Origin: Actinomycetes bacterium
GTDB taxonomy: Bacteria > Actinomycetota > Acidimicrobiia > Acidimicrobiales > Ilumatobacteraceae
Direction of reading: 5' to 3'
Length of the DNA: 33,362 nucleotides
Assembly: GCA_025358125.1 (NCBI GenBank)
Contig: JANYKS010000116.1
Location: 1-33,362, forward strand
Part shown: piece by piece, positions 4,566 through 25,589 of the stretch
Layout: each line of letters starts with the position of its first letter
How positions within the stretch are numbered: position 1 is the stretch's first letter
The notes under the pieces: model-generated
The model's input: the letters and a program-made list of their open reading frames with translations, nothing else
What the model was told of the DNA's origin: nothing
Database searches by the model: none
Position numbers and translations under genes: made by a program

Positions 4566-4817
4566 TCATCCCGTCGGGCGCAGAACGGTCGACCAGGCCG
4601 AACCCCCGTCGTTGCCCTGGGCTTGGAGACGCTCTGCGAGGAGTCCCCCGCCCTTGCTGAGCAGGCTGCGCGCCATCGAGAGCCCTCCGGCCATCATGTC
4701 GTGGGCTTCGTCCGACGACCTGATCGCCTTCCAAGCCCCCTTCAGTTCTTCCAACTCATTCGCACCGGCCTTCGTGCCCATGACGTAGCCGACTATCAAA
4801 CCGATCAAAACTCCCAT
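4566..4817 (-). CDS. Small membrane-anchored protein (83 aa), copy 1
   Basis: The N-terminus MGVLIGLIVGYVMGTKAGAN is a single glycine-rich membrane segment of the YtxH-like kind. It is followed by an amphipathic, soluble tail (ELEELKGAWKAIRSSDEAHD and a Ser/Leu/Gly stretch). I do not recognise a function. The start overlaps the end of hypC by 13 bases, and hypD starts 7 bases after its stop, so it is embedded in the maturation operon. A paralogue lies at 18417-18680 with the same layout (MG-hydrophobic-GYVMG-AG, then a helix containing AIR-SDE-HD). That paralogue also sits next to a YceI-domain gene. The repeated pairing suggests the small protein and YceI domain work together, perhaps at the membrane; that is inference. 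Confidence 0.8.
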   Translation of the reverse strand: MGVLIGLIVGYVMGTKAGANELEELKGAWKAIRSSDEAHDMMAGGLSMARSLLSKGGGLLAERLQAQGNDGGSAWSTVLRPTG

Positions 4818-5125
4818 CGTTCACCATCTCCTCTTGTTGTAGGTCCTGTGGTCATTGTCGTCGGCGAGGTCATCAACGCCTCGACCTCGTCGGTGAAGGC
4901 CTCGCCCATCATCTGCAACGACGCGAGGGCGAGGCGGGCCTCCTCCTCGTCGATCTTCGACATCGCGAATCCGACGTGGATGAGCACCCAGTCACCCGGC
5001 ACGACGTTCTCGTCCTCGAGCAAGCCGATGTTGATCATCCGGCCGACTCCGCTCACATCGACACGAGCGAGATGTTCGTGTGTCGGATGCATCTCCACGA
5101 CCTGACCCGGGATCCCGAGGCACAT
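4805..5125 (-). CDS. hypC: Hydrogenase maturation chaperone HypC/HupF
   Basis: HypC carries the Fe(CN)2CO precursor with HypD and delivers it to the large subunit. The N-terminus MCLGIPGQVVEM has the essential Cys2, which becomes accessible after Met removal. The beta-barrel core follows (ARVDVSGVGRMINIGLL, VVPGDWVLIHVGFAMSKIDE). At 106 aa it is longer than the usual 75-95 aa because of a C-terminal Thr/Pro-rich tail. The start at 5125 is one base from the YceI stop, and its end overlaps the small membrane protein start. A second HypC-like domain occurs inside the fusion at 16639-17376. Confidence 0.95.
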   Translation of the reverse strand: MCLGIPGQVVEMHPTHEHLARVDVSGVGRMINIGLLEDENVVPGDWVLIHVGFAMSKIDEEEARLALASLQMMGEAFTDEVEALMTSPTTMTTGPTTRGDGERWEF

Positions 5126-5126
5126 G

Positions 5127-5639
5127 TCAGCTCTCCTTCTCGGCGACGATTTCTACACGAACCATCACTTCGGGTTGAACCTTCAACATCAGAATCCTCG
5201 GCGGCTCCATGCCGAAGTCGCGGATGTCGAAGGTCGACTGGCCCGTCAGCTTCACTGCCTCGCCGTCGAGGCCTTCGAATGTCATCTGGTCCTCGTACGA
5301 CCGGGTCACACCGCGGAACGTAAGATCGCCGTTGACAACAAGACCCGCCTCGCCGTTGTGCGCTTTCATCAGCTTGAGGTCGCCGGCAATCGTCGGAAAA
5401 CGTCGGGAGTCGATCCGCCGCCGCAATTCACGGTCTTCGAGCGCCTTACCCGAGGTGAGGTTCTCGACTGGGAACTCGAGATGGCCGCGAGGCGCCAAGT
5501 CGAGGTTGATCTTTCCGTCACGGATGTCCAGCTCGAGCCAGCCATCGAGTCCGTCGGCCTCGGTGTGGATCGGATGCACGTTCGAACGCGCGTCAATCCA
5601 CACGTGCGACCGTTTCGGGTCGATCCGGTATCGGGCCAT
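5127..5639 (-). CDS. YceI-family lipocalin-like protein
   Basis: A 170-aa YceI-domain protein; the family folds as an extended lipocalin-like barrel that binds polyisoprenoid chains such as quinones or their precursors. Typical features are an N-terminal RYRIDPKRSHVWIDARSNV, the LTSGKALEDRELRRRIDSRR segment, GDLTFRGVTR, and a C-terminal DIRDFGMEPPRILMLKVQPE strand pair. There is no signal peptide, so unlike E. coli YceI it should be cytoplasmic. It lies in the hydrogenase operon between the 34-aa membrane peptide and hypC, one base from hypC. A homologous domain is fused to a PadR regulator at 18716-19825. I infer that it handles the lipid electron acceptor of the hydrogenase. A general isoprenoid role, or an as yet unknown maturation role, are alternatives. 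Confidence 0.9.
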   Translation of the reverse strand: MARYRIDPKRSHVWIDARSNVHPIHTEADGLDGWLELDIRDGKINLDLAPRGHLEFPVENLTSGKALEDRELRRRIDSRRFPTIAGDLKLMKAHNGEAGLVVNGDLTFRGVTRSYEDQMTFEGLDGEAVKLTGQSTFDIRDFGMEPPRILMLKVQPEVMVRVEIVAEKES

Positions 5640-5645
5640 GGACGA

Positions 5646-5750
5646 CTACATCGCCCGGATCTTGAGGTAGCGAGCGATGTCGGGGAGCGACTTCACGACA
5701 AGGCCTGCAACCACTGCCAACAGCAACGAGAACAGAAAACGGTGGATCAT
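5646..5750 (-). CDS. 34-aa single-span membrane peptide
   Basis: A short gene too small for most ORF callers. The peptide starts MIHRFLFSLLLAVVAGLVVK, a clean hydrophobic helix, then SLPDIARYLKIRAM with a basic tail. The ATG at 5750 forms an ATGA overlap with the stop of the protease gene, and the stop lies 6 bases before the YceI start. Gene spacing alone therefore supports it. I recall a family of small actinobacterial proteins (DUF6893) with the same SLPDIARYLKIR ending; this is from memory. It probably sits in the membrane with the basic tail in the cytoplasm and may anchor or dock a soluble partner such as the YceI protein or the hydrogenase. Confidence 0.75.
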   Translation of the reverse strand: MIHRFLFSLLLAVVAGLVVKSLPDIARYLKIRAM

Positions 5751-6229
5751 GATGGGAGCTCCTCCTGGAGGTTGGAATAGATATCGGCGAGAACCCGGCG
5801 GACCGTTTCGACGGCCGGCGCGATTGCTGCGGTGACGGGTTCGGACAACCCGATGCCCTCCTCCACGGTGAGCGGCTCGCAGCCGACCACCACGACATGC
5901 GGCACATGGCCACCCATGCTGGTCAACAGGCCGAGCACGACGGCCGGGTTCATCGAGTGAGCGTCCATGCCATTTGCTTCCACCGACTCGACGTCTGGCT
6001 CGAAGATCGCGACCGTACCCGGCTCTTCGCCCATCGGCATCGCGTCGACGAGCACCAGCGCGTCGTAACCATCGAGCAATTCGAACGACAGGTGCACGCC
6101 GCGGATGCCGAAGTCTGCAACCTTGACCCCGGCAGGCACCGACATCCCGTCCATGCGCTTGACGACCTCGACGCCGAAGCCGTCGTCACCGAGGAAGATG
6201 TTGCCGATGCCGGCGACGAGCACATTCAC
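5747..6229 (-). CDS. Hydrogenase maturation protease (HyaD/HycI family)
   Basis: This endopeptidase removes the C-terminal extension of the hydrogenase large subunit after nickel insertion. The 160-aa protein begins MNVLVAGIGNIFLGDDGFGV, the family signature. Candidate nickel-sensing residues are the Glu after GFGV, the Asp in LVLVDAM, and the His in DAHSMNP. The GTG at 6229 overlaps the upstream stop as GTGA; longer readings upstream give only shadow sequence. Its target is clear: the large subunit at 9537-11336 has a 24-residue tail after its DPCxxCxxH motif. Confidence 0.95.
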   Translation of the reverse strand: MNVLVAGIGNIFLGDDGFGVEVVKRMDGMSVPAGVKVADFGIRGVHLSFELLDGYDALVLVDAMPMGEEPGTVAIFEPDVESVEANGMDAHSMNPAVVLGLLTSMGGHVPHVVVVGCEPLTVEEGIGLSEPVTAAIAPAVETVRRVLADIYSNLQEELPS

Positions 6230-7629
6230 GCCAGCACTTCGATCTCGTCGGGGTGGAAGTACAGGAACCGGCCTTGCCACTCGAACATGTCGCGGGCCGG
6301 ATCGTCGTCGAGCACGACGGCGACGTGTTGGTTGCCGTCGACGTCGTTGAAGACCCCTTTCACCACGGCCAACTGGCCCGCGTAGAACAGATCGTGGGCG
6401 TCGGCCCGACGGGAGGGATTCAGGCGCACGCGCGTGCCATTGGCAACCTCGACGCCGCCGATCTGCATCACGTCCGTGAAGGGATCGAAAGACGAGTCCT
6501 GTCCGGGGTCCCACCACGGCACCGACGGATTGCCGCCATCTCGCTCGGACGCGACGGGCGCCGTATCGATCGGTCGCAGCGAGCGGACCGCTCCGTGCAG
6601 TCGCGACCAGATCTCCTCGGGCAGGTCGTCGCAACGGTCGATGATGGCCGCTGCGCGTGGATCCGTGCCGCGGGCCTCCGCCTTCTCCTCGTCGGTCAGG
6701 GTCATCACCCGCAACGCGAGGATCTCGTCGATCTCGGTCGAGTCACAGAAGTTGCCAACGCTCTCAGGCGCGACCGCCGGGTAGTCGTAGAGGATGATCG
6801 GAGACGACAGCATCACGCTGGCGGTGACCTCGTTTCCGATCAACACCGGGAACGTGCCGTCGCTCGTACAGCCGGCGACGGCCTGCTCGGCGAACGCCGC
6901 AGGCTCCAACAACGACACGAACGACGCATCGTCGACCGCCAAAAGGGTGTGCACCGCAATCAACGACCGGCGCATGGCGGTGTCGCGATCCGCGCCCTGT
7001 TCGTTCCAGGCCGTCGTGTTCTCGACAGTGATCGAGACCTTGAGCAGCGCTGCATCCCCGTCTGCCCATCGAGTCGAGATGCGAACCACGCCATCGACCC
7101 GCTCGCACCGCCGGATTGCGCGACCGATGGTCTCACCGCCGGACCCGCGGAACAGTTCGACGTCGTCGCCGGCCACCAACGTGAACCGGTGCTCCTTGGC
7201 CGCATCGGCGAGTGGCAGCAGCGCAAGGACATCGACATCGATCTCGTGGTCGACCGCTTCGTCCCACGCCACCACCATTCTGCCCCCGACATGCAGCGAG
7301 GCGACGGGCGTGAACGTCGTTCCATCGTCGGCGCTTGCCTCGACGTCGCGATGCTTGACCTGGAGGCAGCGGATCCGCACGGTGAACATCGGTTGATCAC
7401 CCGGATCGACGATCACCTCACTGCGCATCGACCATCGTTCCGACCCGCACGAACGCGCGTGGTTCTCTGGGGCGAGCACACCGAACTGCCACCGCAACTG
7501 GTTCTTCTGCGCCGATGCCCGGTACGGGTACAGCACATAACCTTCGTAGAGCACGGCGTCGGCGACGAGGCGCGCCGACGCAAAACGGTCCGCTCGAACG
7601 GCAGGAACTTCGGAGGTTGCGCTGCTCAC
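6226..7629 (-). CDS. Hydrogenase-locus hypothetical protein (467 aa)
   Basis: I recognise this only as an unnamed protein type seen in group 1h hydrogenase operons. The N-terminal part (AVLYEGYVLYPYRASAQKNQ, then RWQFGVLAP) and the middle contain several beta-rich stretches (VDGVVRISTRW, LLKVSITVENTTAWN). The acidic C-terminal domain reads AVVLDDDPARDMF and FLYFHPDEIEVLA. There is no signal peptide, membrane span or Cys cluster. The true start is the GTG at 7629, because it makes a GTGA overlap with the DUF6084 stop and the conserved segment begins soon after; the reading frame stays open further upstream, but that part is antisense to its neighbour. Being coupled between DUF6084 and the protease argues for a role in assembling or partnering the hydrogenase. 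Confidence 0.75.
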   Translation of the reverse strand: MSSATSEVPAVRADRFASARLVADAVLYEGYVLYPYRASAQKNQLRWQFGVLAPENHARSCGSERWSMRSEVIVDPGDQPMFTVRIRCLQVKHRDVEASADDGTTFTPVASLHVGGRMVVAWDEAVDHEIDVDVLALLPLADAAKEHRFTLVAGDDVELFRGSGGETIGRAIRRCERVDGVVRISTRWADGDAALLKVSITVENTTAWNEQGADRDTAMRRSLIAVHTLLAVDDASFVSLLEPAAFAEQAVAGCTSDGTFPVLIGNEVTASVMLSSPIILYDYPAVAPESVGNFCDSTEIDEILALRVMTLTDEEKAEARGTDPRAAAIIDRCDDLPEEIWSRLHGAVRSLRPIDTAPVASERDGGNPSVPWWDPGQDSSFDPFTDVMQIGGVEVANGTRVRLNPSRRADAHDLFYAGQLAVVKGVFNDVDGNQHVAVVLDDDPARDMFEWQGRFLYFHPDEIEVLA

Positions 7630-8264
7630 AGGTCCTCTCCCGCTTCCTTCAACAGCATCTCGAAGGTCTCGTCCCACGTCCGCAGTGCCCGGTCCACTTT
7701 GTAGCGTTGCAGCGAGTCGAGTGTCTGGCGTCCCAGACGCAGCCATGCGCAGTTGGGAAAGTACAGGTCCATCATCTCGCGCCAGAGGGCGACCGGCAGC
7801 CGGTACGACGATTCTTCGCTCCACGACACGGGCACAGCGCTCAAACCGGCTGCGCTCTTGGCGAACACGGTACCCGAGAACATGACGACGATCGGGATTT
7901 CGCCGTCATCGAGCGCATGCATGTACTTCGTCGATGCGATCTCGAAATCGTACGTGCACGTGATCGGCAGGTCGACCTCGGTGCTGTCGCTGAAGCCGTT
8001 GACCGTCATACCCACGTTTGCCCACAGGAACGGCCGCAACGTGTCGCCCCAGCGCGGCGTCTCACCGAACAGCTCCGTGAGGCGACGTTCTTCGGCGCCT
8101 TCGTAGTGGCGTCGCTTCGGTTCGATCATGATCTGGCAACGGAGTGCCATCGCGTGCACGGGGCTATTTGCGGGCGAGGTGATCCGCAAGCGAAGCATCA
8201 GTGTGGGCACTGCTGCGAACGCCTCCGCTCGTGCGCCCAGAACCTCGAACGAGACCGGGCTCAT
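7626..8264 (-). CDS. DUF6084-type hydrogenase accessory protein
   Basis: A 212-aa protein beginning MSPVSFEVLGARAEAFAAVP. It has the RLRITSPANSPVHAMALRCQ segment and an R-Y-EG-EERRL-ELFGE-PRWGDTLRPFLW motif. Later it has PVSWSEESSYRLPVALWREM. From memory this matches DUF6084, a family of unknown function found with actinobacterial-type hydrogenases. It has no membrane segment or metal-binding Cys cluster. It appears to be a beta-sandwich-like soluble protein. Its ATG at 8264 overlaps the DUF5947 stop (ATGA) and its stop overlaps the next GTG (GTGA), so it is likely made in step with both neighbours. Confidence 0.8.
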   Translation of the reverse strand: MSPVSFEVLGARAEAFAAVPTLMLRLRITSPANSPVHAMALRCQIMIEPKRRHYEGAEERRLTELFGETPRWGDTLRPFLWANVGMTVNGFSDSTEVDLPITCTYDFEIASTKYMHALDDGEIPIVVMFSGTVFAKSAAGLSAVPVSWSEESSYRLPVALWREMMDLYFPNCAWLRLGRQTLDSLQRYKVDRALRTWDETFEMLLKEAGEDL

Positions 8265-8953
8265 GACCGAACGCCCTCCGCCGAGGTCCGTGCCGAGGTC
8301 CGCGCTGGACGAGCGCGGGCGCGCACACGATCGAAGAACGCGTCGAGCGCGGCGTGCGCTTCCGCACCGCCGTCGAAGCCCCGCCACAGCCTCCTCAGCT
8401 CGCCCACCAGCTCGTAGCAGACGTCGATCGGCACGAGGTAGCACTCTGCCTGCGCCTGCGCCACACCCGTGCGACGATCTGCGCTGCGCACGAGGAACGC
8501 TTCGACATCGGGGCGCAGGGTCGAGAGATCCGGGTTGGCGCCGACGATCTCGTCCCACGCCTCCAGTGACAGCAACGATTCGGTGGCGCCGGCCGGGCTC
8601 GGATAGAACCCAGCGACACGACCGAGCGCCGAGTTCACGAAGAAGAAGGCGACACCGACAGGGATCTGGAGCGCGTCCCACTCCGCAGCGGAGAGTGTGA
8701 AGTCGGGGAACGAGACGAAGCGGTCCGGCACGGAGCGGAATCTCGCGCCACCGGCGCCCTCGGGGGCGAACACCAAATAGCACGGCCGGCACGCGCACAT
8801 CAGCGCGCGGGTTTCGAGATCGACCACATGCCCGTGCTCGTCGGGGATCAATTCCGCGCAGAGCTCGCAGCGCTCGCCGGGGCGCGGCTTCGGCTTCAGC
8901 CGTATGTCGCCGATCCTTTTCAGGACCGCGCTCAGCGGCTGGCCTTCACTCAC
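8261..8953 (-). CDS. DUF5947-type zinc- or Fe-S-binding accessory protein
   Basis: A 230-aa protein with an N-terminal cysteine cluster: Cys29 and Cys32 (CELC), then Cys53, Cys55 and Cys58 (LMCACRPCYLVF). This looks like a zinc finger or a small Fe-S site. The rest includes FPDFTLSAAEWDALQIPVGV and VGANPDLSTLRPDVEAFLVR, which I associate from memory with DUF5947, a family tied to group 1h hydrogenase loci. No enzyme motif is seen. It is coupled by ATGA overlaps both to the NifU-like gene before it and to DUF6084 after it. The Cys cluster and the NifU neighbour hint at cofactor assembly or electron transfer, but that is inference. Confidence 0.82.
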   Translation of the reverse strand: MSEGQPLSAVLKRIGDIRLKPKPRPGERCELCAELIPDEHGHVVDLETRALMCACRPCYLVFAPEGAGGARFRSVPDRFVSFPDFTLSAAEWDALQIPVGVAFFFVNSALGRVAGFYPSPAGATESLLSLEAWDEIVGANPDLSTLRPDVEAFLVRSADRRTGVAQAQAECYLVPIDVCYELVGELRRLWRGFDGGAEAHAALDAFFDRVRARARPARTSARTSAEGVRS

Positions 8954-9534
8954 GACACGCTCACATCCGATGCGAGCGCCGCGCCGCAGCCGCTCGCAGG
9001 ATCGAACGCGAGGATCGGCTTGGAGGTCAGTGAAATTGGAGTTACGACGTCAGGTTGGGTCGGCTCCTCGACATCGATGATCACGATTTCGGGCGCTGCC
9101 TCGACGATGGCTCGCTCCACGGTCGTGCGCAGCGTGACCGCCGATGAGGGGCAGCCGTCGCAACTCCCGAGCAACCTCAGGTGCACGGCACCGAGGCGCT
9201 CGTCGATATCCAGCAATTCAACGTCCCCGCCGTGGCCCGCGAGGAACGGCCGCACGCCTTCGAGTGCACGCTCGATGCGCACGATCAGATTATCGGGGTG
9301 CAACCCGTTGGCGACGAGCAAGCTGGCCAACAGATCGTCGGCAACGATCAGGCCGACGAGATCCGGTGCGTGCTGCTCGGCCAACTTCATGATCCGAGCG
9401 AGTCCTGAGCCGTACAACTGGCTGACGAGCTGCACCAGCTCGACGGCCTGGTCGAAGACGCGAGGGTCGACCCTCGCCTGCAACTGTTCGAGCGAGCGCT
9501 CGATGGTGTCGCCGATGGTTCGCTCGTTCGACAC
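8950..9534 (-). CDS. NifU C-terminal-domain protein
   Basis: A 194-aa protein whose middle (about residues 84-155) is a NifU-like domain with the signature LLGSCDGCPSSAVTLR, giving Cys125 and Cys128. Such domains hold a transient [4Fe-4S] cluster for delivery to apo-proteins. The N-terminal part is helical (IGDTIERSLEQLQARVDPRV, FDQAVELVQLVSQLYG) and lacks the NifU scaffold domain. The chosen start is GTG 9534, two bases after the hhyL stop, preceded by AGGACC. A likely job is supplying clusters to the small subunit, which needs several; alternatively it could be an electron-transfer partner. Confidence 0.9.
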   Translation of the reverse strand: MSNERTIGDTIERSLEQLQARVDPRVFDQAVELVQLVSQLYGSGLARIMKLAEQHAPDLVGLIVADDLLASLLVANGLHPDNLIVRIERALEGVRPFLAGHGGDVELLDIDERLGAVHLRLLGSCDGCPSSAVTLRTTVERAIVEAAPEIVIIDVEEPTQPDVVTPISLTSKPILAFDPASGCGAALASDVSVS

Positions 9535-9536
9535 GC

Positions 9537-11336
9537 TCAGATCAGGTCCTCGTGATTGAGCATCGTTGGCGAATGCATCTTCTTGACGACGTGCCCCTTG
9601 CCCAGATACATGTGGACGCCGCACGGCAGGCACGGATCGAAGCTGCGCACGGTGCGCATGATGTCGATGCCCTTGAAGTGCTCGAGATCGTTTTCCTCGA
9701 AGATCGGGCAACCCTGCACCGCGTCCTCATACGGGCCGGGTGTTCCGAAGGAGTCGCGCGGGTTGGCATTCCACGGCGTCGGCGGATACGGGTGGTAATT
9801 CGCGATCTTGCCGTCGCGGATCACCATGTGGTGTGACTGCACGCCGCGCACGGCCTCGGTGAAACCGCAACCGATACCGTCCTCGGGTACCGTGAACGGC
9901 TCCCACGTCTTGGTCCTGCCGGCCCGCACGTCCTCGAGCGCCTTGTCGAGGAAATGCAATGCTGCGGCGGCCGCATAGGCCTGGAAGTAGGTGCGGGCAC
10001 GGTTGCGTTCGATCGTGTTCGACCACTTCGGGATCTTCCATTCGAAGCTCACCGGGCCCTTCAGCGCGGTCTTCGGAAGATTGATCTTCACGCTCGTACC
10101 CGTGGCCTGCACGTAGCCTCCGAGATCGACGAGGCCGGACAATGCGGTCGACCACAGCCGGGCGAGCGGACCGCCACCCGTATCGAGTGCGAGGTGGTCC
10201 TTGCCGTCGAACCAGCGAGGTGACATGACCCAGCTGTAGTTACCGTCGAAGTCACGTTTTTGCGGCTTCGGGATCGTCGTCTGGTTCCATGGGTGGTTGC
10301 GGTCCACGGGGTTGCCCAGCGGATCCTTGGTGACGAAGATCTCCTGGTCCTCCCAGCTCTCGTAGAAGGAGTGGCCGAGCAGGATGCGGATACCGAGGTT
10401 GATGTCGACGAGATCGTTGGTGACGAGTTTGCCGTCAACGATCACGCCCGGCGTGACTCCCATCGCCCGGCCCCACTGACTCATGTCCCTGTAATCGAAG
10501 TTGCAGACATCGGGATCCTGGAACGAGCCCCAGCAGCCGAGCAGGATGCGACGGTTGCCGACCTGCTCGTACCCCGGCATCGCCTCGTAGAAGAAGTCGA
10601 ACAGGTCGTCGTGCAGTGGCACGACCCGCTTCATGAACTCGACGTAGCGCATCAACCGGCTGGCATAGTCGGTGAACAGCTGAATCGTCGCAGTAGTGCC
10701 GACACCACCGGGATACAGCGTCGAGGGGTGCACGTGGCGGCCCTCCATCAGGCAGAACATCTCACGCGTGTACCGGCTGACCTGCAACGCCTCGCGGTAG
10801 AAGTCGCCGGTGAACGGGTTCAACTGGCGCATGATGTCGCCGATCGTCTTGCAGCCGTGCTCGCCAGCGTGCGGAGCTTCGGTGCGGTTTGCCAGATCGA
10901 GCACGCCGGGATTGGTCTCGGCGACCATCTTTTCGCAGTAGTCGACGCCGACGAGGTTCTCCTGGAAGATGTTGTGGTCGAACATGTACTCGGCCGCCTC
11001 GCCGAGGTTCACGATCTGTTCGGCGAGCGCCGGCGGTTTCACGCCGTACGCCATGTTCTGTGCGTAGCACGAGCACGTCGCATGGTTGTCGCCGCAGATG
11101 CCACAGATGCGGCTCGTGATGAAGTGGGCGTCGCGCGGGTCCTTGCCCTTCATGAAGATGCTGTAGCCCCGAAAGATCGACGACGTGCTGTGGCACTCGG
11201 CCACTGTCTTGTTCGCCCAGTCGATCTTGGTGTAGATGCCGAGGCTGCCGACGATGCGTGTGATCGGGTCCCACGCCATTTCGATGAGTTGCTTGCCTTG
11301 ACCGTCCGGCCGCAGGTTTTCAGTGACTGTTGCCAT
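9537..11336 (-). CDS. hhyL: [NiFe] hydrogenase large subunit, group 1h (actinobacterial high-affinity) type
   Basis: Catalytic subunit that splits H2 at the NiFe site. The protein is 599 aa. The N-terminal nickel ligands are Cys78 and Cys81 in SRICGICGDNHATCS. The C-terminal pair is Cys569 and Cys572 in FDPCLPCGVHMYLG. After His575 there is a 24-residue tail, the expected substrate of the protease at 5747-6229. The sequence style (MAWDPITRIVGSLGIYTKID, HSTSSIFRGYSIFMKGKDPR) is that of group 1h/5 enzymes that oxidise atmospheric or sub-atmospheric H2. The ATG at 11336 is 5 bases from the hhyS stop. The group call rests on motif style plus the CxxD site in the small subunit, not on a tree. Confidence 0.95.
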   Translation of the reverse strand: MATVTENLRPDGQGKQLIEMAWDPITRIVGSLGIYTKIDWANKTVAECHSTSSIFRGYSIFMKGKDPRDAHFITSRICGICGDNHATCSCYAQNMAYGVKPPALAEQIVNLGEAAEYMFDHNIFQENLVGVDYCEKMVAETNPGVLDLANRTEAPHAGEHGCKTIGDIMRQLNPFTGDFYREALQVSRYTREMFCLMEGRHVHPSTLYPGGVGTTATIQLFTDYASRLMRYVEFMKRVVPLHDDLFDFFYEAMPGYEQVGNRRILLGCWGSFQDPDVCNFDYRDMSQWGRAMGVTPGVIVDGKLVTNDLVDINLGIRILLGHSFYESWEDQEIFVTKDPLGNPVDRNHPWNQTTIPKPQKRDFDGNYSWVMSPRWFDGKDHLALDTGGGPLARLWSTALSGLVDLGGYVQATGTSVKINLPKTALKGPVSFEWKIPKWSNTIERNRARTYFQAYAAAAALHFLDKALEDVRAGRTKTWEPFTVPEDGIGCGFTEAVRGVQSHHMVIRDGKIANYHPYPPTPWNANPRDSFGTPGPYEDAVQGCPIFEENDLEHFKGIDIMRTVRSFDPCLPCGVHMYLGKGHVVKKMHSPTMLNHEDLI

Positions 11337-11341
11337 GGTCT

Positions 11342-12397
11342 TTACCCCAGATCTCCCTTGTAGCCGGTGAGCAACTTGTTGCCCTTTACTCTCCACTTCG
11401 GTTCTTCGTCGACCGTCTTGGCCGTGATCTTGCGCAAGCTGCGGATCGCCGTGCCGTAGAGACCGCTGACGAGCGTCGACACCCGCGCACCGGGCGGTTC
11501 GTCCATGAACGGCATGAACTTGTCAGGAAAGCCGGGCATCGTGCAGCCGATGCAGATGCCACCGACGTTGGGGCAACCTCCGACACCGTTGATCCAGCCG
11601 CGCTTCGGTACGTTGCATTTGACGACGGGTCCCCAGCAGCCGAGCTTGACGATGCATTTCGGCGAGCCGTACTCGGTCGCGAAATCCCCCTGCTCGTAGT
11701 AGCCCGCACGGTCACATCCCTCGTGAACGGTGGCGCCGAACAACCACTGCGGCCGCAGGGCGTCGTCGAGCGGGATCATCGGTGCCTGCCCTGTCGCCTG
11801 GTACAGCAGGTACGTGATGGTCTCTGACATGTTGTCCGGATGGGCTGGGCATCCTGGCACGCAAACGATCGGAATGCCGGCCTTGGACTTCCAACCCCAA
11901 CCAAGATAGTCCGGCACGCCCATCGCGCCCGTCGGGTTGCCGGCCATCGCGTGGATACCGCCGTACGTCGCGCACGTGCCGACCGCCAGAATGGCGAGCG
12001 CGTTCGGTGCGAGGCGGTCGAGCCAGGCGTTCACCGTCATCGGCTGGCCGGTCTCGGGGTTGTTGCCGAAGCCGGTCCAGTAGCCCTCGCCGGTGATTTC
12101 CTCGTTCGGGATCGAGCCCTCGACGACCAAGACGAACGGCTCCAACTCCCCCCGAGCGGCTTTGAAGTACCACTCGAGGAAGTCGTCGGCGCCGCCGTTC
12201 GGGCCGCATTCGAAATCGATCAGCGGCCAATGGACGGCGATCTTCGGTAGCCCCGGCAATCCGCCCAGCGCGATCTCTTCGATGGTGGGTTGTGTCGCCG
12301 CGGTCAAGGCGACCGAATCGCCGTCGCAGCCGAGACCGGCGTTGAGCCAGAGGATATGGACGACCAGTTCGTCCGGAGGGGCTTCCGTAGCCGTCAT
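11342..12397 (-). CDS. hhyS: [NiFe] hydrogenase small subunit, group 1h type
   Basis: Fe-S electron-relay subunit, 351 aa. The proximal cluster site is unusual: Cys24 and Asp27 (GLGCDGDSV) replace the normal CxxC; Cys142 (VGTCATYGG) and Cys183 (VPGCPAHP) complete it. Established knowledge: a 3-Cys/1-Asp proximal cluster is a mark of the actinobacterial-type oxygen-tolerant enzyme. Likely distal and medial ligands are His225, Cys228, Cys248, Cys254, Cys261, Cys275, Cys282 and Cys285. There is no twin-arginine signal, so the enzyme stays on the cytoplasmic side. The start at 12397 has a strong AAAGGAG Shine-Dalgarno. It has its own promoter candidate and a structured leader upstream. Confidence 0.96.
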   Translation of the reverse strand: MTATEAPPDELVVHILWLNAGLGCDGDSVALTAATQPTIEEIALGGLPGLPKIAVHWPLIDFECGPNGGADDFLEWYFKAARGELEPFVLVVEGSIPNEEITGEGYWTGFGNNPETGQPMTVNAWLDRLAPNALAILAVGTCATYGGIHAMAGNPTGAMGVPDYLGWGWKSKAGIPIVCVPGCPAHPDNMSETITYLLYQATGQAPMIPLDDALRPQWLFGATVHEGCDRAGYYEQGDFATEYGSPKCIVKLGCWGPVVKCNVPKRGWINGVGGCPNVGGICIGCTMPGFPDKFMPFMDEPPGARVSTLVSGLYGTAIRSLRKITAKTVDEEPKWRVKGNKLLTGYKGDLG

Positions 12398-12402
12398 GCT
12401 CA

Positions 12403-12479
12403 CTCCTTTGTGCCACGGCGCCGACAAGATCCGGCGCACGTACGATGGTCGGTGCCGGGGACAGCGATCATCGTGGCAC
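12403..12479 (-). promoter_or_regulatory. Structured 5' leader of hhyS
   Basis: An 8-base inverted repeat brackets the leader: 12472-12479 pairs with 12410-12417 (GTGCCACG/CGTGGCAC). Inside it a 6-base stem (12432-12437 with 12418-12423, GCGCCG/CGGCGC, 8-base loop) is nested. The 3' arm touches the Shine-Dalgarno at 12403-12409. Folding could limit or time translation. I do not match it to a known riboswitch. Confidence 0.4.
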
Positions 12480-12495
12480 CGATGGGACTGGCCCC

Positions 12496-12524
12496 GTTCT
12501 ACGCCGGCCTCGGGAATTCGTCAA
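12496..12524 (-). promoter_or_regulatory. Candidate sigma-70-type promoter for hhySL
   Basis: On the minus strand TTGACG (12519-12524) and TAGAAC (12496-12501) are separated by exactly 17 bases. Transcription would begin near 12489, giving a leader of about 90 bases before the hhyS ATG. It lies between hypF and hhyS, so the structural genes may be driven separately from the upstream hyp genes. Confidence 0.5.
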
Positions 12525-12547
12525 TGAGTGCGTTTTGCACTGCTCAC

Positions 12548-12563
12548 CCACACGGCCGTGTGG
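12548..12563 (-). terminator. Hairpin just after hypF
   Basis: A perfect 16-base palindrome (CCACACGGCCGTGTGG) starts 3 bases after the hypF stop. It has no following T-run, so it is a weak intrinsic terminator at best. It could instead be an RNA-processing or stability stem that separates hypF from hhyS levels. Confidence 0.35.
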
Positions 12564-12566
12564 CGA

Positions 12567-14876: not shown

Positions 14877-14895
14877 CGCGCCGCCGGACACGGCG

Positions 14896-15981
14896 TCAGC
14901 AGATGCGCGGGAGCGGGTCGCCGACGAGCATATCGACGATCCTCGTCCCACCGAAGCTGGTCAGCAGCACGACGATGGCTTGCGGCTCGGCCATGATCTC
15001 GCCGATCCGGGTCGCGTCGGCGCCCAGCGGGTTCGACCGCATCGCTTCGAGGGCGGCGTCGGCCTGCTCCGGTGCGACCACGACGAGCACCTTGCCCTCG
15101 TTGGCGACATAGAGCGGATCGATCCCGAGCAGATCACAGGCACCCACCACGGCGGGGGCGATCGGCAGCAGCGACTCGTCGAGGACCACCGCAAGGTTCG
15201 TGTCGCGAGCGAGCTCGTTGCACACCGTCGCGACGCCGCCGCGAGTTGGGTCGCGCATCCAGCGCGTGGAGGGCGCAGCATCGAGCAGAGCCGCGACGAG
15301 TTCACCGAGCGGGGCCGTGTCGGATCGGATGTCCGCATCGAGCATGAGGTCGCCGCGGGCCAGCATCACAGCCATACCGTGGTCGGCCATGTTGCCCGAG
15401 AGCAGCACCACGTCGCCCGGTTGCACGTACTCGGGTCCGAGGTGCCGCCCGGCCGGAACGATGCCGATGCCGGCCGTGGTGATGTAGAGGCCGTCGGCCG
15501 CCCCCTTGCCCACCACCTTGGTGTCACCGGTGACGATGACGACGCCGGCGGCCGCAGCGGCCTCTGCCATGTCGGCGACGATTTCGCGCAGCTCGGCGAC
15601 GGGGAAGCCCTCCTCGATCACGAATCCCGCCGACAGCCATACCGGCTTGGCTCCCGAGACCGCGAGGTCGTTCACGGTGCCGTGCACCGCGAGGTGACCG
15701 ATCGAGCCACCGGGGAACTGACGCGGCTGCACGACGAACGAATCCGTCGTAAAGGCCAACCGTTCACCGGTGGGCAGTGTGAGGGTCGCGGCGTCGGCCA
15801 GAGGCGTGCGGTCCCCTGGCGCGAACGCCTCGACGAACACGGCATCGACCAGCGCAGCGGACGCCTTGCCGCCCGCCCCGTGGGCCATTGTGATCATGTC
15901 GTCGATCAGCCGCGGCCGCCGTCGGCGGAACGCCTCGATCCGTTCGAGGACCTCTGCCTCCCGATCGCCGGGTGTCGTCAT
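14896..15981 (-). CDS. hypE: Hydrogenase maturation protein HypE
   Basis: HypE dehydrates the carbamoyl group received from HypF to a thiocyanate on its last residue, which becomes the CN ligand of iron. The protein is 361 aa and ends PRIC, so the required C-terminal Cys361 is present. Typical AIR-synthase-like motifs are visible: MAHGAGGKAS, FTTDSFVVQP, NDLAVSGAKPVWLSAGFVIE, VTGDTKVV, RDPTRGGVATV and VANEGKVLVVV. The ATG at 15981 overlaps the stop of the SIS gene (ATGA), which settles the start over longer upstream readings. Confidence 0.97.
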   Translation of the reverse strand: MTTPGDREAEVLERIEAFRRRRPRLIDDMITMAHGAGGKASAALVDAVFVEAFAPGDRTPLADAATLTLPTGERLAFTTDSFVVQPRQFPGGSIGHLAVHGTVNDLAVSGAKPVWLSAGFVIEEGFPVAELREIVADMAEAAAAAGVVIVTGDTKVVGKGAADGLYITTAGIGIVPAGRHLGPEYVQPGDVVLLSGNMADHGMAVMLARGDLMLDADIRSDTAPLGELVAALLDAAPSTRWMRDPTRGGVATVCNELARDTNLAVVLDESLLPIAPAVVGACDLLGIDPLYVANEGKVLVVVAPEQADAALEAMRSNPLGADATRIGEIMAEPQAIVVLLTSFGGTRIVDMLVGDPLPRIC

Positions 15982-16637
15982 CGCCCGTTCTCCTCGTTCG
16001 CCATTCGCGCCTGCACGTCTCGCCACAATGCGAAACCGAGCGCCGCCTGTGTCTCCTGGATCCGGTGGACACTGTCGGAGTTGACCATCAGGCAGTGCTT
16101 CACGTGTCGTGACTGCGCCATCTCGCCGCCCGAGTAGCCCGCGATGCCGATCGTCAGCATGCCCCGGTTTGCGGCTTCGGTGAACGCGTTCAGCAGGTTG
16201 CGGGAGTTGCCGCTCGTCGACAGGCCGATCGCGATGTCGTCGCTGCCGGCGTGTGCCATCAACTGCCGCGAGAACACGAGATCGAACCCGACGTCGTTAC
16301 CGAGGGCCGTCAGCACGGCGGAGTCGCCGACGAGGTTGCGCGCCGGCAGCGGTCGGCCCCACGGTGGCTCGATGAACAGCGCAGCGAGCGACGCCGCGTC
16401 CGTGGAACTGCCGCCGTTGCCGAACACGAACAACCGGCCACCTCGGGCGAATCGATCGGTCATCGCCGCAGCCGCTGCCCCGACTGCGGTAGCTGATTGC
16501 TCGAGCGTCACACGACGGAGTTCCGCGCTCGCCGCTGCCTTACCGCGTGCGGACTCGGCGAGGTCGATCAACAGCGCGCCGGCGTCGCGCTCGTCCGCCT
16601 CGATGAACGGATAGAGGAAGTCGGTGCGTTCGGTCAT
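15978..16637 (-). CDS. SIS-domain protein (GmhA-like)
   Basis: A 219-aa single SIS-domain protein similar to phosphoheptose isomerase GmhA. It has FVFGNGGSSTDAASLAALFI near residue 75 and IGLSTSGNSRNLLNAFTEAA near residue 145, the sugar-phosphate-binding loops. The C-terminus has VHRIQETQAALGFALWRDV, close to the GmhA signature with its Glu and Gln. In GmhA it would turn sedoheptulose 7-phosphate into glycero-manno-heptose 7-phosphate, but no other heptose genes are nearby. From memory, GmhA-like proteins recur in actinobacterial-type hydrogenase loci, so a maturation role is more likely. It starts at ATG 16637, one base after the fusion gene's stop, and overlaps hypE by ATGA. Confidence 0.85.
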   Translation of the reverse strand: MTERTDFLYPFIEADERDAGALLIDLAESARGKAAASAELRRVTLEQSATAVGAAAAAMTDRFARGGRLFVFGNGGSSTDAASLAALFIEPPWGRPLPARNLVGDSAVLTALGNDVGFDLVFSRQLMAHAGSDDIAIGLSTSGNSRNLLNAFTEAANRGMLTIGIAGYSGGEMAQSRHVKHCLMVNSDSVHRIQETQAALGFALWRDVQARMANEENGR

Positions 16638-16638
16638 G

Positions 16639-17376
16639 TCAAGGCAGCACTGCGATGGCAACACCGGCGTGGATCAGCACGAGATCGCCCGGCGCGACCG
16701 CGTCGAGGATCATCGTGTCGATCATCTCGACGCCCCGCGCCGTACGCACGCTGAAAGAGGAGGGGCCGTTCGTGGCGATCACTTCGCCGAGTCGGCCTTC
16801 GTCCGAGCAGGTGATGCAGACCTCGCCGTCCCCGCACTCCGCCTCGTCGGTTGCAGCGAGCAACCCGGGATGTTCGAAGCAGACGTGGGTCAGCTCCCAC
16901 AACACGTGATAGAGCAGCACCATCCGGCCATCGTGCACGGCCAGGCCCTTCTGCTCGTCGTCGTCGTCATCGACCCACAGGATGTGATCTGCGGCCCGCG
17001 CCGTCGGCGGCTCACCGGCGCCGATCCAGATGGTCATTGCGCCCCAGGCCTCGGCGCGGCGCATAACGGCGAGCGTCGAGGAGGAGTCGCCGCTGCTCAC
17101 GGCGAGTACGACGTCGCCCGATCGCACCAGCGATCGAAGCACGACCGCCGGATCCGATGCGTCGACGCTCACCGCTGGCAACGCCCGTTTGCCGACCAGC
17201 ACCGGGTGCACGAACTCGACCGCGACATGACGGGCGTGCTCGGGCCACTCGGGAGCGATGCACCACAGCGTGCCTCCTCCGGCGAACCGCCGGGCAAGCG
17301 ACAGCGCAGCGATCGCGAGCGGGTCACCGATGTCGACATCGCGGCCGCCGCGGAGATCCTCTGCCATGGCCGTCAT
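16639..17376 (-). CDS. SIS-HypC fusion protein
   Basis: A 245-aa protein with two parts. Residues 1-180 are a SIS-like domain (DPLAIAALSLARRFAGGGTL; VVLAVSSGDSSSTLAVMRRA). It ends with an acidic DDDDDE stretch and HVLWELTHVCFEHPG. Residues 186-245 are a HypC/HupF domain: CITCSDEGRLGEV, GVEMIDTMILDAVAPGDLVL and IHAGVAIAVL. In normal HypC the working Cys is residue 2; here the candidate Cys187 and Cys190 are internal. It is the first gene of the long operon, starting at ATG 17376 with GGAGG eight bases upstream and a promoter candidate beyond. Being next to a second SIS protein suggests a SIS heteromer carrying a HypC arm (inference). Confidence 0.85.
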   Translation of the reverse strand: MTAMAEDLRGGRDVDIGDPLAIAALSLARRFAGGGTLWCIAPEWPEHARHVAVEFVHPVLVGKRALPAVSVDASDPAVVLRSLVRSGDVVLAVSSGDSSSTLAVMRRAEAWGAMTIWIGAGEPPTARAADHILWVDDDDDEQKGLAVHDGRMVLLYHVLWELTHVCFEHPGLLAATDEAECGDGEVCITCSDEGRLGEVIATNGPSSFSVRTARGVEMIDTMILDAVAPGDLVLIHAGVAIAVLP

Positions 17377-17424
17377 TGGTCGTACCTCCGTCAAGCCGCG
17401 CCGGGCGCGGTCGTCATCGCTCGG

Positions 17425-17453
17425 ACAGTACGCCTTTCCACCCGTGCCAGCAA
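17425..17453 (-). promoter_or_regulatory. Candidate promoter for the SIS-HypC/hypEF operon
   Basis: On the minus strand TTGCTG (17448-17453) and TACTGT (17425-17430) are 17 bases apart. The start codon at 17376 lies about 50 bases further on with a GGAGG. The site is in the 133-base gap shared with the divergent PAS gene, so both could be controlled here. Confidence 0.45.
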
Positions 17454-17509
17454 GGGCAGACATCGCGCCGGTCGATGCGCGGACAATGGCGCGATAGTGT
17501 TCGATCACC

Positions 17510-18436
17510 ATGAGGGATCCGATCGAGGATGTGGCCGATGCGGTGCTCGTGTTGGCAAAGGATGGTCGGGTCGTCCGCGCGACGCCCGCTGCCGCCGAGA
17601 TTCTCGGCGTCGCGCCGGGCGAGCTCCTCGGCCGCACCGTCAGCCTCGTCGAGAGCGCCAGCGGCAACCGCGAGGGCGGCTTCAGCGGGCGGGCGGTGCT
17701 CGACATCTTCGCCGATCTTTCGAGCCTCGCGTTGTTCAGCCAGGACACAACCGGCCACATCGTCAGTTGGAACCGAGGCGCAGAACGGATCTTCGGCTAC
17801 TCCGAGGACGAAGTTGTCGGCCACGCGCTGAGAATGTTGGCGCCCAAGCACTTGCGTGCCGACCTGGAGTCGGTCCAAGAACGAGTCGCAGCGGGAGAAC
17901 GCGTCGAACGAGAGTTCACCGAGATACGGCGCAAGGACGGCATGCCGATTCCGATCGCGCTCTCCGTGTCCGCTGTCACCGGAGCATCCGGCGCATTCAT
18001 GGGTGCGGTCGGCGTTGCCCAAGAGCTCACCGAAACCCGCCTCGCACAGGCTGCGCTGGCCGAGGTGGAGCAGCGGTTCCGGGAGTGGGAGGCGCTCGCG
18101 CACGTCGGCCGCTGGCTGTGGGACGTCGGCAGCGACGCGGTGCAGTGGAGCGACGAGCTCCACCGCATGCACGGGGTCGACCCACGCGACTTCGACGGCA
18201 CGCTCGACGCGCACCTCAGCGTGGTGCACCCTGACGACCGCGATCGCGTCCGCTCGTTGATGGAGGGTGCCGTGGCGACGAGTCAGCCGTACGAGGACGT
18301 GTACCGCGTGGTGGGCGCCGACGCAGTGACACGCTCGTTCGCAACGCGCGCCGAACCAGCCGTCGGCTCGTCAGGTGATGTCGTCGGCGTGCGCGGCGTC
18401 AGCCACGACGACACGCTCAGCGCCCTCCGACGATGA
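17510..18436 (+). CDS. Three-PAS-domain protein without output domain
   Basis: A 308-aa cytoplasmic protein with about three PAS folds. PAS1 covers residues 5-65 (ADAVLVLAKDGRVVRATPAA, LGVAPGELLG). PAS2 covers about 75-175 (DTTGHIVSWNRGAERIFGYS; EIRRKDGMPIPIALSVS). PAS3 covers about 195-300 (GRWLWDVGSDAVQWSDELHR, VVHPDDRDRVRSLM). It ends SHDDTLSALRR with no kinase, GGDEF, HTH or other effector, and no membrane segment. PAS domains sense redox, oxygen or small ligands. It is divergent from the hydrogenase operon and its end overlaps the convergent small membrane gene by 20 bases. The start ATG at 17510 has no strong Shine-Dalgarno. It may be a partner-type sensor, or a truncated kinase; I see no decayed kinase remnant downstream. 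Confidence 0.85.
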   Translation: MRDPIEDVADAVLVLAKDGRVVRATPAAAEILGVAPGELLGRTVSLVESASGNREGGFSGRAVLDIFADLSSLALFSQDTTGHIVSWNRGAERIFGYSEDEVVGHALRMLAPKHLRADLESVQERVAAGERVEREFTEIRRKDGMPIPIALSVSAVTGASGAFMGAVGVAQELTETRLAQAALAEVEQRFREWEALAHVGRWLWDVGSDAVQWSDELHRMHGVDPRDFDGTLDAHLSVVHPDDRDRVRSLMEGAVATSQPYEDVYRVVGADAVTRSFATRAEPAVGSSGDVVGVRGVSHDDTLSALRR

Positions 18437-18680
18437 GCCTCACCCGCGCGACGAGATCGGTCGGCGCACCGGGCTCGTCGGTCCGCTCCCGCGCCCGTTC
18501 CACCATTGCCGCCATCTCCCGCAGCGAGTGGGCGGCGTGGGTGCGCACCGCCTTGACGAAGTCGTGGAACTCGTCGGATTCACGGATCGCGTGAACGGCA
18601 TCGACCACCTCGTCAAGGCTTTCGCCCCCGGCCCGTGAGCCCATCACATACCCGGCGGCGAAGACCAGCAGCAGTCCCAT
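18417..18680 (-). CDS. Small membrane-anchored protein (87 aa), copy 2
   Basis: Paralogue of the 83-aa protein at 4566-4817. It begins MGLLLVFAAGYVMGSRAGGE, one glycine-containing membrane helix. The soluble helix contains VHAIRESDEFHDFVKAVRTH, and the tail is charged. A purine-rich Shine-Dalgarno (AAAGGGGAAGTC) lies before the ATG. It sits 35 bases downstream of the PadR-YceI gene on the same strand and likely shares its transcript. Function unknown; the repeated neighbourhood with a YceI domain is the main clue. Its 3' end overlaps the end of the convergent PAS gene. Confidence 0.8.
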   Translation of the reverse strand: MGLLLVFAAGYVMGSRAGGESLDEVVDAVHAIRESDEFHDFVKAVRTHAAHSLREMAAMVERARERTDEPGAPTDLVARVRLIVGGR

Positions 18681-18715
18681 GACTTCCCCTTTCTCTGTGT
18701 TGCTCCCGCTCCCCG

Positions 18716-19825
18716 TTACAGCCCATTAGCCCCATGAGACCGGCTCGGCTGCTCGAGTTCTGCTTCGAGCTGCAACTTTACGACGACATCCGGATAGATC
18801 CGCAACATCAACACCGTCGGCGATGCAATGCCGAAGTCGCGAATGTCGACCACCTGCTCGCCGCGCACCACCATCGTGTGATCCGACGACATGACCACCG
18901 CGACGGTTCCGTCGAGCGGCCTTTTGACCCCGTGGAAGGTCATTTCGCCGACGAGCCGGTAACGCCCGCTGGAGCCGAGGGCCGTGCACCCACGCAGCTC
19001 GAGGCTCACGCTGGGATGGCGGCGGGCATCGATCCGGCGCAACAACTCTGCGTCGTAGAGACTGTTCCCAGACTGCAGGCGTTCGACGTCCATCTGGAGA
19101 TGCGCCGTCGGGAGAGGCTGTGGGCAGATCCGGCGACCGGCGACGGACGCTTCGATGACGCCGGCGACGCCGATCGCGCCGAAGGTGATCGGCCCGACCG
19201 ACGAGCGGGCGTCGATCAACACGACCGACCGGTCCGGCACGACTCGGAACCGGATCACCTCGGGGCGCCGGGAATCGATGTCCGCCGGATCGCAGCCGAT
19301 CTCGGCCCAGGCATCGGGCCCAGCCGCTGACAACGAGGACCGTCGGCTCCGATCGATCCGAGATGTCGACGAAACCGGTGACCACGGTGTTGCCGTCACC
19401 GCGTGCCAACCACCCTCGACCTCCGCGAGAACCGCGTCGACGGTGCCACTGGCCACGTAGCGGCGAAGCACTCGATCAAGTCCGTCGCGCTCCTGCTTGA
19501 TCACGCCCATCCAGGAGCGCAGCACCTGCTCGCCCTCTTCGGTCAGGCAGTATGCACGGCGGCCCTGTCCGGCCCGCGGCGCCTCCGGCGACGAACCGAC
19601 CAGTCCGTCGAGTTCGAGTTGGGCGAGCGCCCGGTACACGCTCGGCCGATCGACGTGACCCACCCGCAACTCGTCCACACCCTTGGCCAGGCTGTAGCCG
19701 TGCTGCGGTGCCTCGGCCAGGAGGAGCAGGATCGCGGGGAGCAGGAAGTGTCGCGGCGCTGCCAACTCGAACCGGGAACGTCGGCTCGGCTGCCAGCCGA
19801 CTGTCGTAGCATTGTGCTCGGTCAT
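18716..19825 (-). CDS. PadR-type regulator fused to a YceI domain
   Basis: A 369-aa protein. The N-terminal domain (about 25-115) is a PadR winged helix: FLLPAILLLLAEAPQHGYSL, VDRPSVYRALAQLELDGLVG and GRRAYCLTEEGEQVLRSWMG. A linker of about 75 residues follows. The C-terminal domain (about 195-360) is YceI-like and clearly related to the protein at 5127-5639. Shared motifs are VLIDARSSV, LQSGNSLYDAELLRRIDARR, GEMTFHGVKRPLDG and DIRDFGIASPTVLMLRIYPD. The fusion looks like a transcription factor with a lipid or quinone-sensing barrel as its ligand domain (inference). It is divergent from hypA across a 105-base gap, and is followed by the small membrane protein, so hypA and its own operon are the obvious targets. 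The reading frame is intact across the junction. Confidence 0.87.
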   Translation of the reverse strand: MTEHNATTVGWQPSRRSRFELAAPRHFLLPAILLLLAEAPQHGYSLAKGVDELRVGHVDRPSVYRALAQLELDGLVGSSPEAPRAGQGRRAYCLTEEGEQVLRSWMGVIKQERDGLDRVLRRYVASGTVDAVLAEVEGGWHAVTATPWSPVSSTSRIDRSRRSSLSAAGPDAWAEIGCDPADIDSRRPEVIRFRVVPDRSVVLIDARSSVGPITFGAIGVAGVIEASVAGRRICPQPLPTAHLQMDVERLQSGNSLYDAELLRRIDARRHPSVSLELRGCTALGSSGRYRLVGEMTFHGVKRPLDGTVAVVMSSDHTMVVRGEQVVDIRDFGIASPTVLMLRIYPDVVVKLQLEAELEQPSRSHGANGL

Positions 19826-23233: not shown

Positions 23234-23238
23234 TCGAG

Positions 23239-25576
<2,338 letters not shown>

Positions 25577-25589
25577 ACAGGAGAAGATC

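Follow-up and report, generated by a model that had tools for sequence, protein, structure and literature searches.

The 33,362-nucleotide contig JANYKS010000116.1 (assembly GCA_025358125.1, an Actinomycetes bacterium of the Ilumatobacteraceae), which we analyzed in its entirety and refer to as the window, belongs to a genome of 4.06 Mb in 118 contigs and carries an operon for a group 1h hydrogenase (Hhy). Within and beside this operon lie genes for a 34-amino-acid peptide of the family DUF6893, two small membrane proteins (SMP1 and SMP2), a free YceI protein, a YceI domain fused to a PadR DNA-binding domain, and a PAS protein. Comparison with other genomes established the linkage and synteny of these genes, their domain and fold assignments, a palindromic footprint at the hhyS promoter, and the conservation of the peptide. 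We propose, with about equal chances of being right or wrong, that a sensory cassette would regulate hhySL and, jointly, that the DUF6893 peptide would serve as the membrane anchor of Hhy; the binding events, the ligand, the direction of regulation, the membrane topology, and the anchoring all belong to the proposed part of this reading. The original prediction for this DNA had described the SMP and YceI genes as a quinone-handling module of the hydrogenase; what it had observed was partly confirmed, all five of its reading frames being present, and its interpretation is partly supported. The elements concerned are as follows:

5646..5750, minus strand: DUF6893 peptide, 34 amino acids (Pfam PF21833, 43 bits; cut-off 24.6)
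5127..5639, minus strand: free YceI protein (Pfam PF04264, 52 bits; cut-off 23.7; no signal peptide by eye)
4566..4817, minus strand: SMP1, small membrane protein of 83 amino acids, operon type (hypC-adjacent relatives in L039, L120, L130, and L210)
18417..18680, minus strand: SMP2, small membrane protein of 87 amino acids, sensory type (beside the PadR-YceI and PAS genes in the window, L039, L024, L171, and L173)
18716..19825, minus strand: PadR-YceI fusion, predicted one-component regulator (Pfam PadR 46.4 bits, cut-off 27; C-terminal YceI 35.6 bits, cut-off 23.7)
17510..18436, plus strand: PAS protein, 308 amino acids (only PAS families over Pfam cut-offs; convergent with SMP2)
12521..12541, minus strand: palindrome AGTGC-N5-GCACT followed by CATTGA, predicted operator, abutting the -35 box
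12496..12524, minus strand: predicted hhyS promoter, TTGACG, 17 bp, TAGAAC (same spacing in L039, L024, and L075)

Two comparison sets were used. The first comprised the best 80 of at least 589 hhyL loci, with flanks of up to 10 kb, some shorter; the window HhyL is 90% identical to that of L039, an Acidimicrobiia metagenome-assembled genome (MAG) and the nearest relative by HhyL in the genome collection, and 81–86% identical to those of the remaining loci kept. The second comprised 296 genomes of the class, nine of which contain hhyL at ≥72% identity. L numbers denote loci and G numbers genomes: L004 is the window, L024 belongs to G131, L173 to G111, L171 and L023 to G203, L027 to G233, L174 to G221, L176 and L177 to G212, and L178, L179, and L180 to G197.

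A 34-residue peptide in group 1h hydrogenase operons

The short reading frame that the original prediction had noticed next to the free YceI gene is a member of DUF6893, with one hydrophobic segment followed by SLPDIARYLKIRAM as its C terminus. When the 80 hhyL loci were searched, the peptide was found at a fixed place in all 70 loci with at least 5 kb downstream of hhyL. In 68 of these, it has the exact C terminus and lies 2.9–4.05 kb after hhyL, while the other two are variants, namely, a weaker match (E 0.028) in L078, a Thermoanaerobaculum MAG, and a frame in L099 that runs beyond the usual end. No other match (E < 0.01 with the same C terminus) was found elsewhere in those 70 loci. The ten loci left out have <5 kb after hhyL, and two of them also show the peptide. 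The profile itself was built from 59 motif-picked peptides of these loci, which makes the strict count circular in part; searches with the window peptide alone and with the Pfam model agree with the profile result.

To assess conservation, we compared 71 sequences that are distinct as DNA. Asp24, Arg27, Tyr28, Arg32, and the final Met are invariant, and the codons vary where possible under these invariant residues (e.g., six codons for Arg27); the ratio of nonsynonymous to synonymous polymorphism (pN/pS) over the last 34 codons is 0.60. Similar peptides lie behind the protease gene in Cupriavidus necator H16 (profile score 16.6 bits) and, by eye, in Methylocystis parvus, both falling in stretches left blank in the incomplete PLSDB gene tables. 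Among four other plasmid loci, three (Mycobacterium intracellulare, Embleya, and Kitasatospora) contain a DUF6893-like peptide, and Streptantibioticus shows no clear one. For hydrogenases of 39–44% identity, no DUF6893 match was found in thirteen partly overlapping stretches, most of them short-flanked. In a sample of the phylum, the PF21833 cut-off was passed by 17 of 27 genomes with hhyL and by 9 of 319 others; eight of these nine matches are found next to hydrogenase or hyp genes, in loci that are cut or reduced, and that in G491 is seemingly due to chance. The match in G541 is beside hypC only, at a contig end.

Some of these loci have features of their own. Two different DUF6893 peptides are found close together in G131, G111, and G225 (L140, L144, and L210:11525-11934). 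In G433 (L123), the peptide, the protease, and the hyp genes are kept, with a short small-subunit match only and no hhyL recognized, so that this is perhaps a reduced Hhy locus; G331 and G384, which bear the same genus label, have hhyL.

The subunits of the group 1h enzyme of Methylacidiphilum fumariolicum are described as having no membrane helices, yet its activity is membrane-associated, and the tie has been ascribed to an unknown partner; the operon there encodes two other membrane proteins, which the same account states to be absent from Actinobacteria (PMC7174314). The DUF6893 peptide is a candidate membrane subunit or anchor of the hydrogenase and the most promising one for the membrane link that group 1h hydrogenases are missing. 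We suggest that it would form a single membrane span with its conserved, positively charged C-terminal tail in the cytoplasm, and that this tail would hold HhySL-HhyE at the membrane.

Several observations weigh against this role. The 80 loci are the best of at least 589, so the count favors close relatives. Of the 27 hhyL genomes in the phylum sample, 10 have no match above the Pfam cut-off, and among the hhyL genomes inspected, G388, G409, and G452 lack the peptide by the peptide profile too (the contig of G335 stops just past hhyL, and G390, G413, G462, G536, G568, and G584 are outside the inspected set). Extra copies occur in some genomes, one of them (G468:C155) on a 4.3-kb contig on which no hydrogenase gene was recognized. 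Furthermore, the C. necator enzyme is described in PMC7174314 as cytoplasmic, though a DUF6893-like peptide is present.

Alternatively, such a peptide could serve in assembly or act as partner to the adjacent maturation protease, and in the loci viewed, the DUF6893 gene is indeed mostly close to the maturation protease gene. However, relative to the protease gene, it is placed ahead in the M. intracellulare plasmid but behind in Kitasatospora, and other hydrogenases are not known to require such a peptide for maturation. We consider a role of this kind doubtful, albeit with a real chance of being correct. The peptide is a more general find than the sensor genes described below.

YceI and small membrane protein genes beside hydrogenase genes

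Using a profile (A2) of seven YceI domains, we found 38 YceI places in 29 of the 296 genomes of the class and examined the flanks of all 38, some of which are cut by contig ends. Among the 17 places scoring ≥180 bits, 11 are beside hydrogenase structural or hyp genes (two each in G000, G131, G203, and G111, and one each in G233, G244, and G221), while the six unlinked places belong to G212 (two), G197 (three), and G188. None of the 21 weaker places (<180 bits) has a hydrogenase, SMP, or PAS gene in the flanks examined. Because the profile was drawn from hydrogenase-locus members, it favors such loci; after removal of its own five places, 6 of the remaining 12 are linked. Hydrogenase loci as counted here include contigs with hyp genes only (G244, G221, and one piece of G203). 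With a second profile (A5), built for the SMPs, 13 places scored ≥53 bits, of which eight belong to hydrogenase loci and five adjoin YceI genes, the others listed scoring <40 bits; ten of the 13 are rows of the profile itself. The YceI and SMP genes are linked to hydrogenase genes beyond chance, and these counts rule out a chance arrangement.

The arrangement in the window is syntenic in three loci (the window, L039, and G131, the last without SMP1) and partly so in others. A free YceI gene lies between DUF6893 and hypC in the window, L039, G131, G203, and G111. SMP1 and SMP2 are 35% identical, with matches at E 1.6e-8 and 9e-9, which bears out their description as paralogs; neither could be assigned to a Pfam family above a cut-off. 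Each had been said to sit beside a YceI gene. This is so for SMP2, which adjoins PadR-YceI, whereas 4805-5125, which we take to be hypC, stands between SMP1 and the free YceI gene. SMP1-like genes also adjoin hypC in G225 and sit between DUF6893 and hypC in G468 and G380; no YceI was recognized in these three stretches.

Both YceI domains predicted earlier, the free one and that joined to PadR, are recognized by Pfam; the NCBIfam PadR models match the fusion only under their cut-offs. The AlphaFold model of the free protein has a predicted local distance difference test score (pLDDT) of 92.3, and in Foldseek, all 21 Protein Data Bank (PDB) entries matched at E ≤ 0.001 are of the YceI type or polyisoprenoid-binding, including TT1927b, itself described as binding polyisoprenoids. 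With template modeling (TM) scores of 0.79–0.82 to 1wub, 5ixh, and 1y0g, the free YceI protein has a YceI-type, lipocalin-like barrel, an assignment that covers this protein only. In the strands, hydrophobic and polar faces alternate, in a computation that took the more hydrophobic face each time. No second Pfam domain was found in ten longer YceI frames scanned, nine of which are from weaker places, and a search of the window's genome revealed one further YceI elsewhere. In a tree of 39 rows, a single 21-member clade (99/97) unites the operon and regulatory types. Seven operon-type sequences group within this clade (97/96) and are joined weakly (86/67) by G244 together with two genes lacking a nearby hydrogenase (L148 and L149); a second inner clade (93/88) comprises 13 members of the SMP, PAS, and PadR types and includes a PadR group (91/78).

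The original prediction had the free YceI protein and the SMPs carry menaquinone to a cytoplasmic hydrogenase, with PadR-YceI reporting the quinone state. YceI proteins elsewhere hold isoprenoids or ubiquinone-8: according to PMC9113575, most YceI structures contain an isoprenoid, and that of Neisseria contains ubiquinone-8. The place of the free YceI gene between DUF6893 and hypC in five genomes would also suit delivery, and the Huc hydrogenase is described as bringing menaquinone to itself via HucM (PMC10017518). However, a free YceI gene is present in just 1 of the 80 best hhyL loci (of at least 589), which excludes the module as a part of every Hhy locus; L039 is also the only one of these loci with YceI and both SMPs. 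YceI of this kind occurs in five of the nine class genomes with hhyL at ≥72% identity and in 24 of the 287 others, some of which are fragmented genomes with hydrogenase genes (G111, G244, and G221), and it was not found at E ≤ 1e-12 in the other four hhyL genomes (G196, G096, G146, and G225). By these counts, most Hhy enzymes seem to work without it, which speaks against a required role in quinone delivery. Against delivery also stand the YceI-SMP pairs beside PAS genes on contigs without a recognized hydrogenase gene and the presence of an HhyE relative in the window, and we regard this explanation as improbable.

A palindrome at the hhyS promoter and a proposed sensory cassette

The palindrome of the window, AGTGC-AAAAC-GCACT, lies two bases ahead of the -35 box of the predicted hhyS promoter, from which a 17-bp spacer leads to the -10 box. 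When 213 loci (2.84 Mb summed with the window, overlaps counted) were searched for RGTGY-N5-RCACTCATTGA, the pattern was found in five, corresponding to four genomes (the window, L039, G131 twice, and L075), with a 17-bp spacer each time. All four genomes have PadR-YceI, cut in one case (L075). At up to one mismatch, the footprint is the single match in the whole genome of the window; at up to three, a second match appears in the window at 6946, roughly the one match that chance alone would give. Of 110 sources, 13 have the core GTGY-N5-RCAC upstream of hhyS; six of these represent the four footprint genomes, and G225 is one of the others.

The PadR-YceI fusion recurs in L039, L024, and L173 and, truncated at its PadR end, in L171. 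In G111 (L173), hhyS and the fusion gene are divergent. PadR genes are likewise divergent from hhyS in L075 and G203 (L023), where the contig ends before the YceI part: in L075, a PadR gene of this kind exits the contig where YceI would start, and the YceI part of G203 is on another contig or missing. PadR-YceI is probably divergent from hhyS in these two further genomes as well.

The PAS gene, overlooked in the original prediction, accompanies SMP2 and PadR-YceI, and 11 of the 12 YceI-SMP pairs have a PAS gene next to them. Relatives of the window PAS protein are encoded beside SMP and PadR-YceI in L039, L024, L173, and L171, and beside YceI-SMP pairs in L174, L176, L177, L178, L179, and L180, the protein of L177 bearing GGDEF and EAL domains. 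On the contigs of G212 and G197 that carry such pairs beside PAS genes, no hydrogenase gene was recognized.

YceI-SMP looks like a sensory cassette by its gene content. Sensing by PadR-YceI is plausible, as it joins a DNA-binding domain to a lipocalin-type domain, and by analogy with other YceI proteins, a quinone is a possible ligand. In the mechanism that we propose, the cassette would consist of the PAS protein, SMP2, and the PadR-YceI fusion. The fusion would bind the hhyS promoter at the palindrome abutting the -35 box, and its YceI barrel would accept a hydrophobic ligand derived from the membrane, with menaquinone or another isoprenoid as the likeliest choice; loading would take place at the membrane via SMP2. 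With the PAS protein supplying a redox or oxygen input, hhySL transcription would be set by the membrane redox or energy state, and the paralogous pair encoded in the structural operon, the free YceI protein and SMP1, would buffer this ligand or present it. The sensor genes sit mainly in one bacterial group, in which they may control the timing of hydrogenase production.

The YceI barrel might instead sense another ligand, such as a fatty acid, a polyprenyl phosphate, or an oxidized lipid, and act as a general membrane-stress sensor placed beside the hydrogenase. Ligands reported for YceI relatives are varied and include polymyxin B and alpha-tocopherol (PMC9113575), and the cassette also occurs away from recognized hydrogenase genes, once with a GGDEF-EAL output. 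The linkage to hydrogenase genes at 11 of the 17 best YceI places speaks against this; the sequence itself cannot tell the ligand. To us, a general stress sensor is a possible but less than probable explanation.

A further explanation is that control by PadR-YceI is confined to the hyp genes or to its own operon and that the palindrome at hhyS belongs to another regulator. The original prediction had PadR-YceI acting at the promoters of hypA and its own operon; its role as a regulator holds up as plausible, whereas the footprint is at the hhyS promoter and not at hypA or padR. The restricted role fits the divergent orientation of PadR-YceI and hypA in the window, the lack of the exact pattern in two PadR-YceI genomes (G111 and G203), and the similar palindrome of G225, where no PadR-YceI was seen in the stretch read. 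The exact footprint, however, is always accompanied by PadR-YceI (in four genomes, one cut), and in G111, the fusion is divergent from hhyS itself. We think a separate regulator at hhyS unlikely.

Regulation of hhySL by the cassette also has to be held against several findings. The padR-hypA region has no footprint match at up to three mismatches. G111 and G203 have, by eye, just a weak variant of the palindrome, a similar palindrome occurs in G225 without PadR-YceI anywhere in the 20 kb covered, and the YceI part of L075 lies off the contig. The four footprint genomes may be close kin, so that shared ancestry can account for part of the footprint. Since the palindrome sits just upstream of the -35 box, it suits an activator as much as a repressor. 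The model of PadR-YceI is poor (pLDDT 59.4) and unsuited to a structure search, and the twelfth YceI-SMP pair, in G233 (L027), is accompanied by an unfused PadR gene, with no PAS gene recognized in the stretch read.

The most far-reaching version of our proposal would make DUF6893 an overlooked small subunit of group 1h hydrogenases from Actinomycetota to Proteobacteria, serving as membrane anchor and quinone-side contact, and would have a YceI-lipocalin transcription factor of the Acidimicrobiia read menaquinone with PAS and SMP proteins and so switch atmospheric H2 oxidation on and off. In this full form, it is speculative and probably wrong in some part.

The hydrogenase operon and known systems

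The remaining genes of the hydrogenase locus are as follows:

11342..12397, minus strand: hhyS, hydrogenase small subunit (by synteny; NCBIfam matches below their cut-offs)
9537..11336, minus strand: hhyL, group 1h hydrogenase large subunit (by identity to relatives)
8950..9534, minus strand: NifU-domain protein, short-type HhyE relative (Pfam NifU 76.7 bits for the open reading frame 8950-9711; one CxxC motif)
8261..8953, minus strand: DUF5947 protein (Pfam 240 bits; two CxxC motifs)
7626..8264, minus strand: DUF6084 protein (Pfam 296.6 bits in a longer frame)
6226..7629, minus strand: conserved unknown protein of the Hhy operon (relatives in 85 of 119 sources, i.e., 118 loci, some overlapping, and the window)
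5747..6229, minus strand: hydrogenase maturation protease (Pfam HycI; NCBIfam hydrog_prot)
4805..5125, minus strand: presumably hypC (relatives share gene context)
3431..4558, minus strand: presumably hypD (relatives share gene context)
19931..20281, plus strand: hypA (Pfam HypA 98.5 bits; divergent from padR-yceI)

With 75.4% identity to the C. necator H16 pHG1 enzyme and 82% to that of a Mycobacterium, the window HhyL is closely related to known group 1h enzymes. A dedicated electron carrier had been thought to be missing from this DNA; the HhyE relative and the DUF5947 protein with its two CxxC motifs, both candidate carriers encoded behind hhyL, contradict this. HhyE, a NifU-domain protein, is reported to be essential for Hhy-dependent H2 oxidation in Mycobacterium smegmatis, and truncated forms are noted in the same source (PMC6883350). 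The two C-terminal CxxC motifs of full-length HhyE are absent from the window protein and present in that of the M. intracellulare plasmid; a C. necator protein annotated as NifU family (L204:13812-14390) has no CxxC motif.

The minus-strand gene at 16639-17400 encodes a SIS-domain-like protein whose C terminus resembles HypC (25.6 bits; cut-off 28.5) and adjoins a second SIS protein gene, both having relatives in other Hhy loci. Beyond the hydrogenase genes, 21249-26842 encodes a LysR-type regulator, fructose bisphosphatase, phosphoribulokinase, the large and small subunits of RuBisCO, and an AAA protein, a gene set of a type familiar from atmospheric chemosynthesis as described in PMC9561532. 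On the M. intracellulare plasmid, genes for NADH-quinone oxidoreductase subunits A to G start directly behind the Hhy operon (L206:18865-25734).

Scavenging of atmospheric H2 by soil bacteria has been called the primary sink of the hydrogen cycle (PMC6883350), and how Hhy is induced is listed as an open question in a 2026 paper (PMC13098282). A lipocalin-type regulator, if true, would answer for one lineage how Hhy is switched on, and the operon-conserved 34-amino-acid peptide, missing from the incomplete PLSDB tables of the C. necator and M. parvus records, is a direct candidate for the membrane tie of group 1h. A literature search that left most subscription journals outside its scope returned no description of the DUF6893 peptide or of the sensory cassette.

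The window shares with the known group 1h enzymes, i.e., Hhy of M. smegmatis and the actinobacterial hydrogenase of C. necator, the gene order hhyS, hhyL, NifU, DUF5947, DUF6084, unknown protein, and protease, followed by hyp genes. It differs from them in its additional YceI, PadR-YceI, PAS, and SMP genes and in its short HhyE relative, which is without the C-terminal CxxC pair. Its YceI proteins share their fold, as seen for the free one, with the YceI lipocalins TT1927b, BcnA, E. coli YceI, and GNA1030, but identity over the 21 YceI-type matches is 12–20%, no signal peptide is seen, and one copy is fused to PadR; the usual partner gene described for YceI is that of cytochrome b561 (PMC9113575). 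With the PadR family of regulators, PadR-YceI has the N-terminal PadR domain in common and differs in its C-terminal YceI domain. As for the proposed anchor, HucM of Huc offers a parallel in concept, in that a soluble hydrogenase is connected there with the membrane and menaquinone by a subunit of its own (PMC10017518); by description, however, HucM is an amphipathic tube of 188 amino acids, whereas DUF6893 has 34 and one hydrophobic span. Short membrane proteins are likewise described in other high-affinity hydrogenase clusters, namely, HylTM1-5 of group 1l and two single-helix proteins of 82–92 amino acids in group 1m (PMC9561532). These are set apart by description and position, since the HylTM genes lie between two subunit genes, whereas DUF6893 follows ~3–4 kb behind hhyL.

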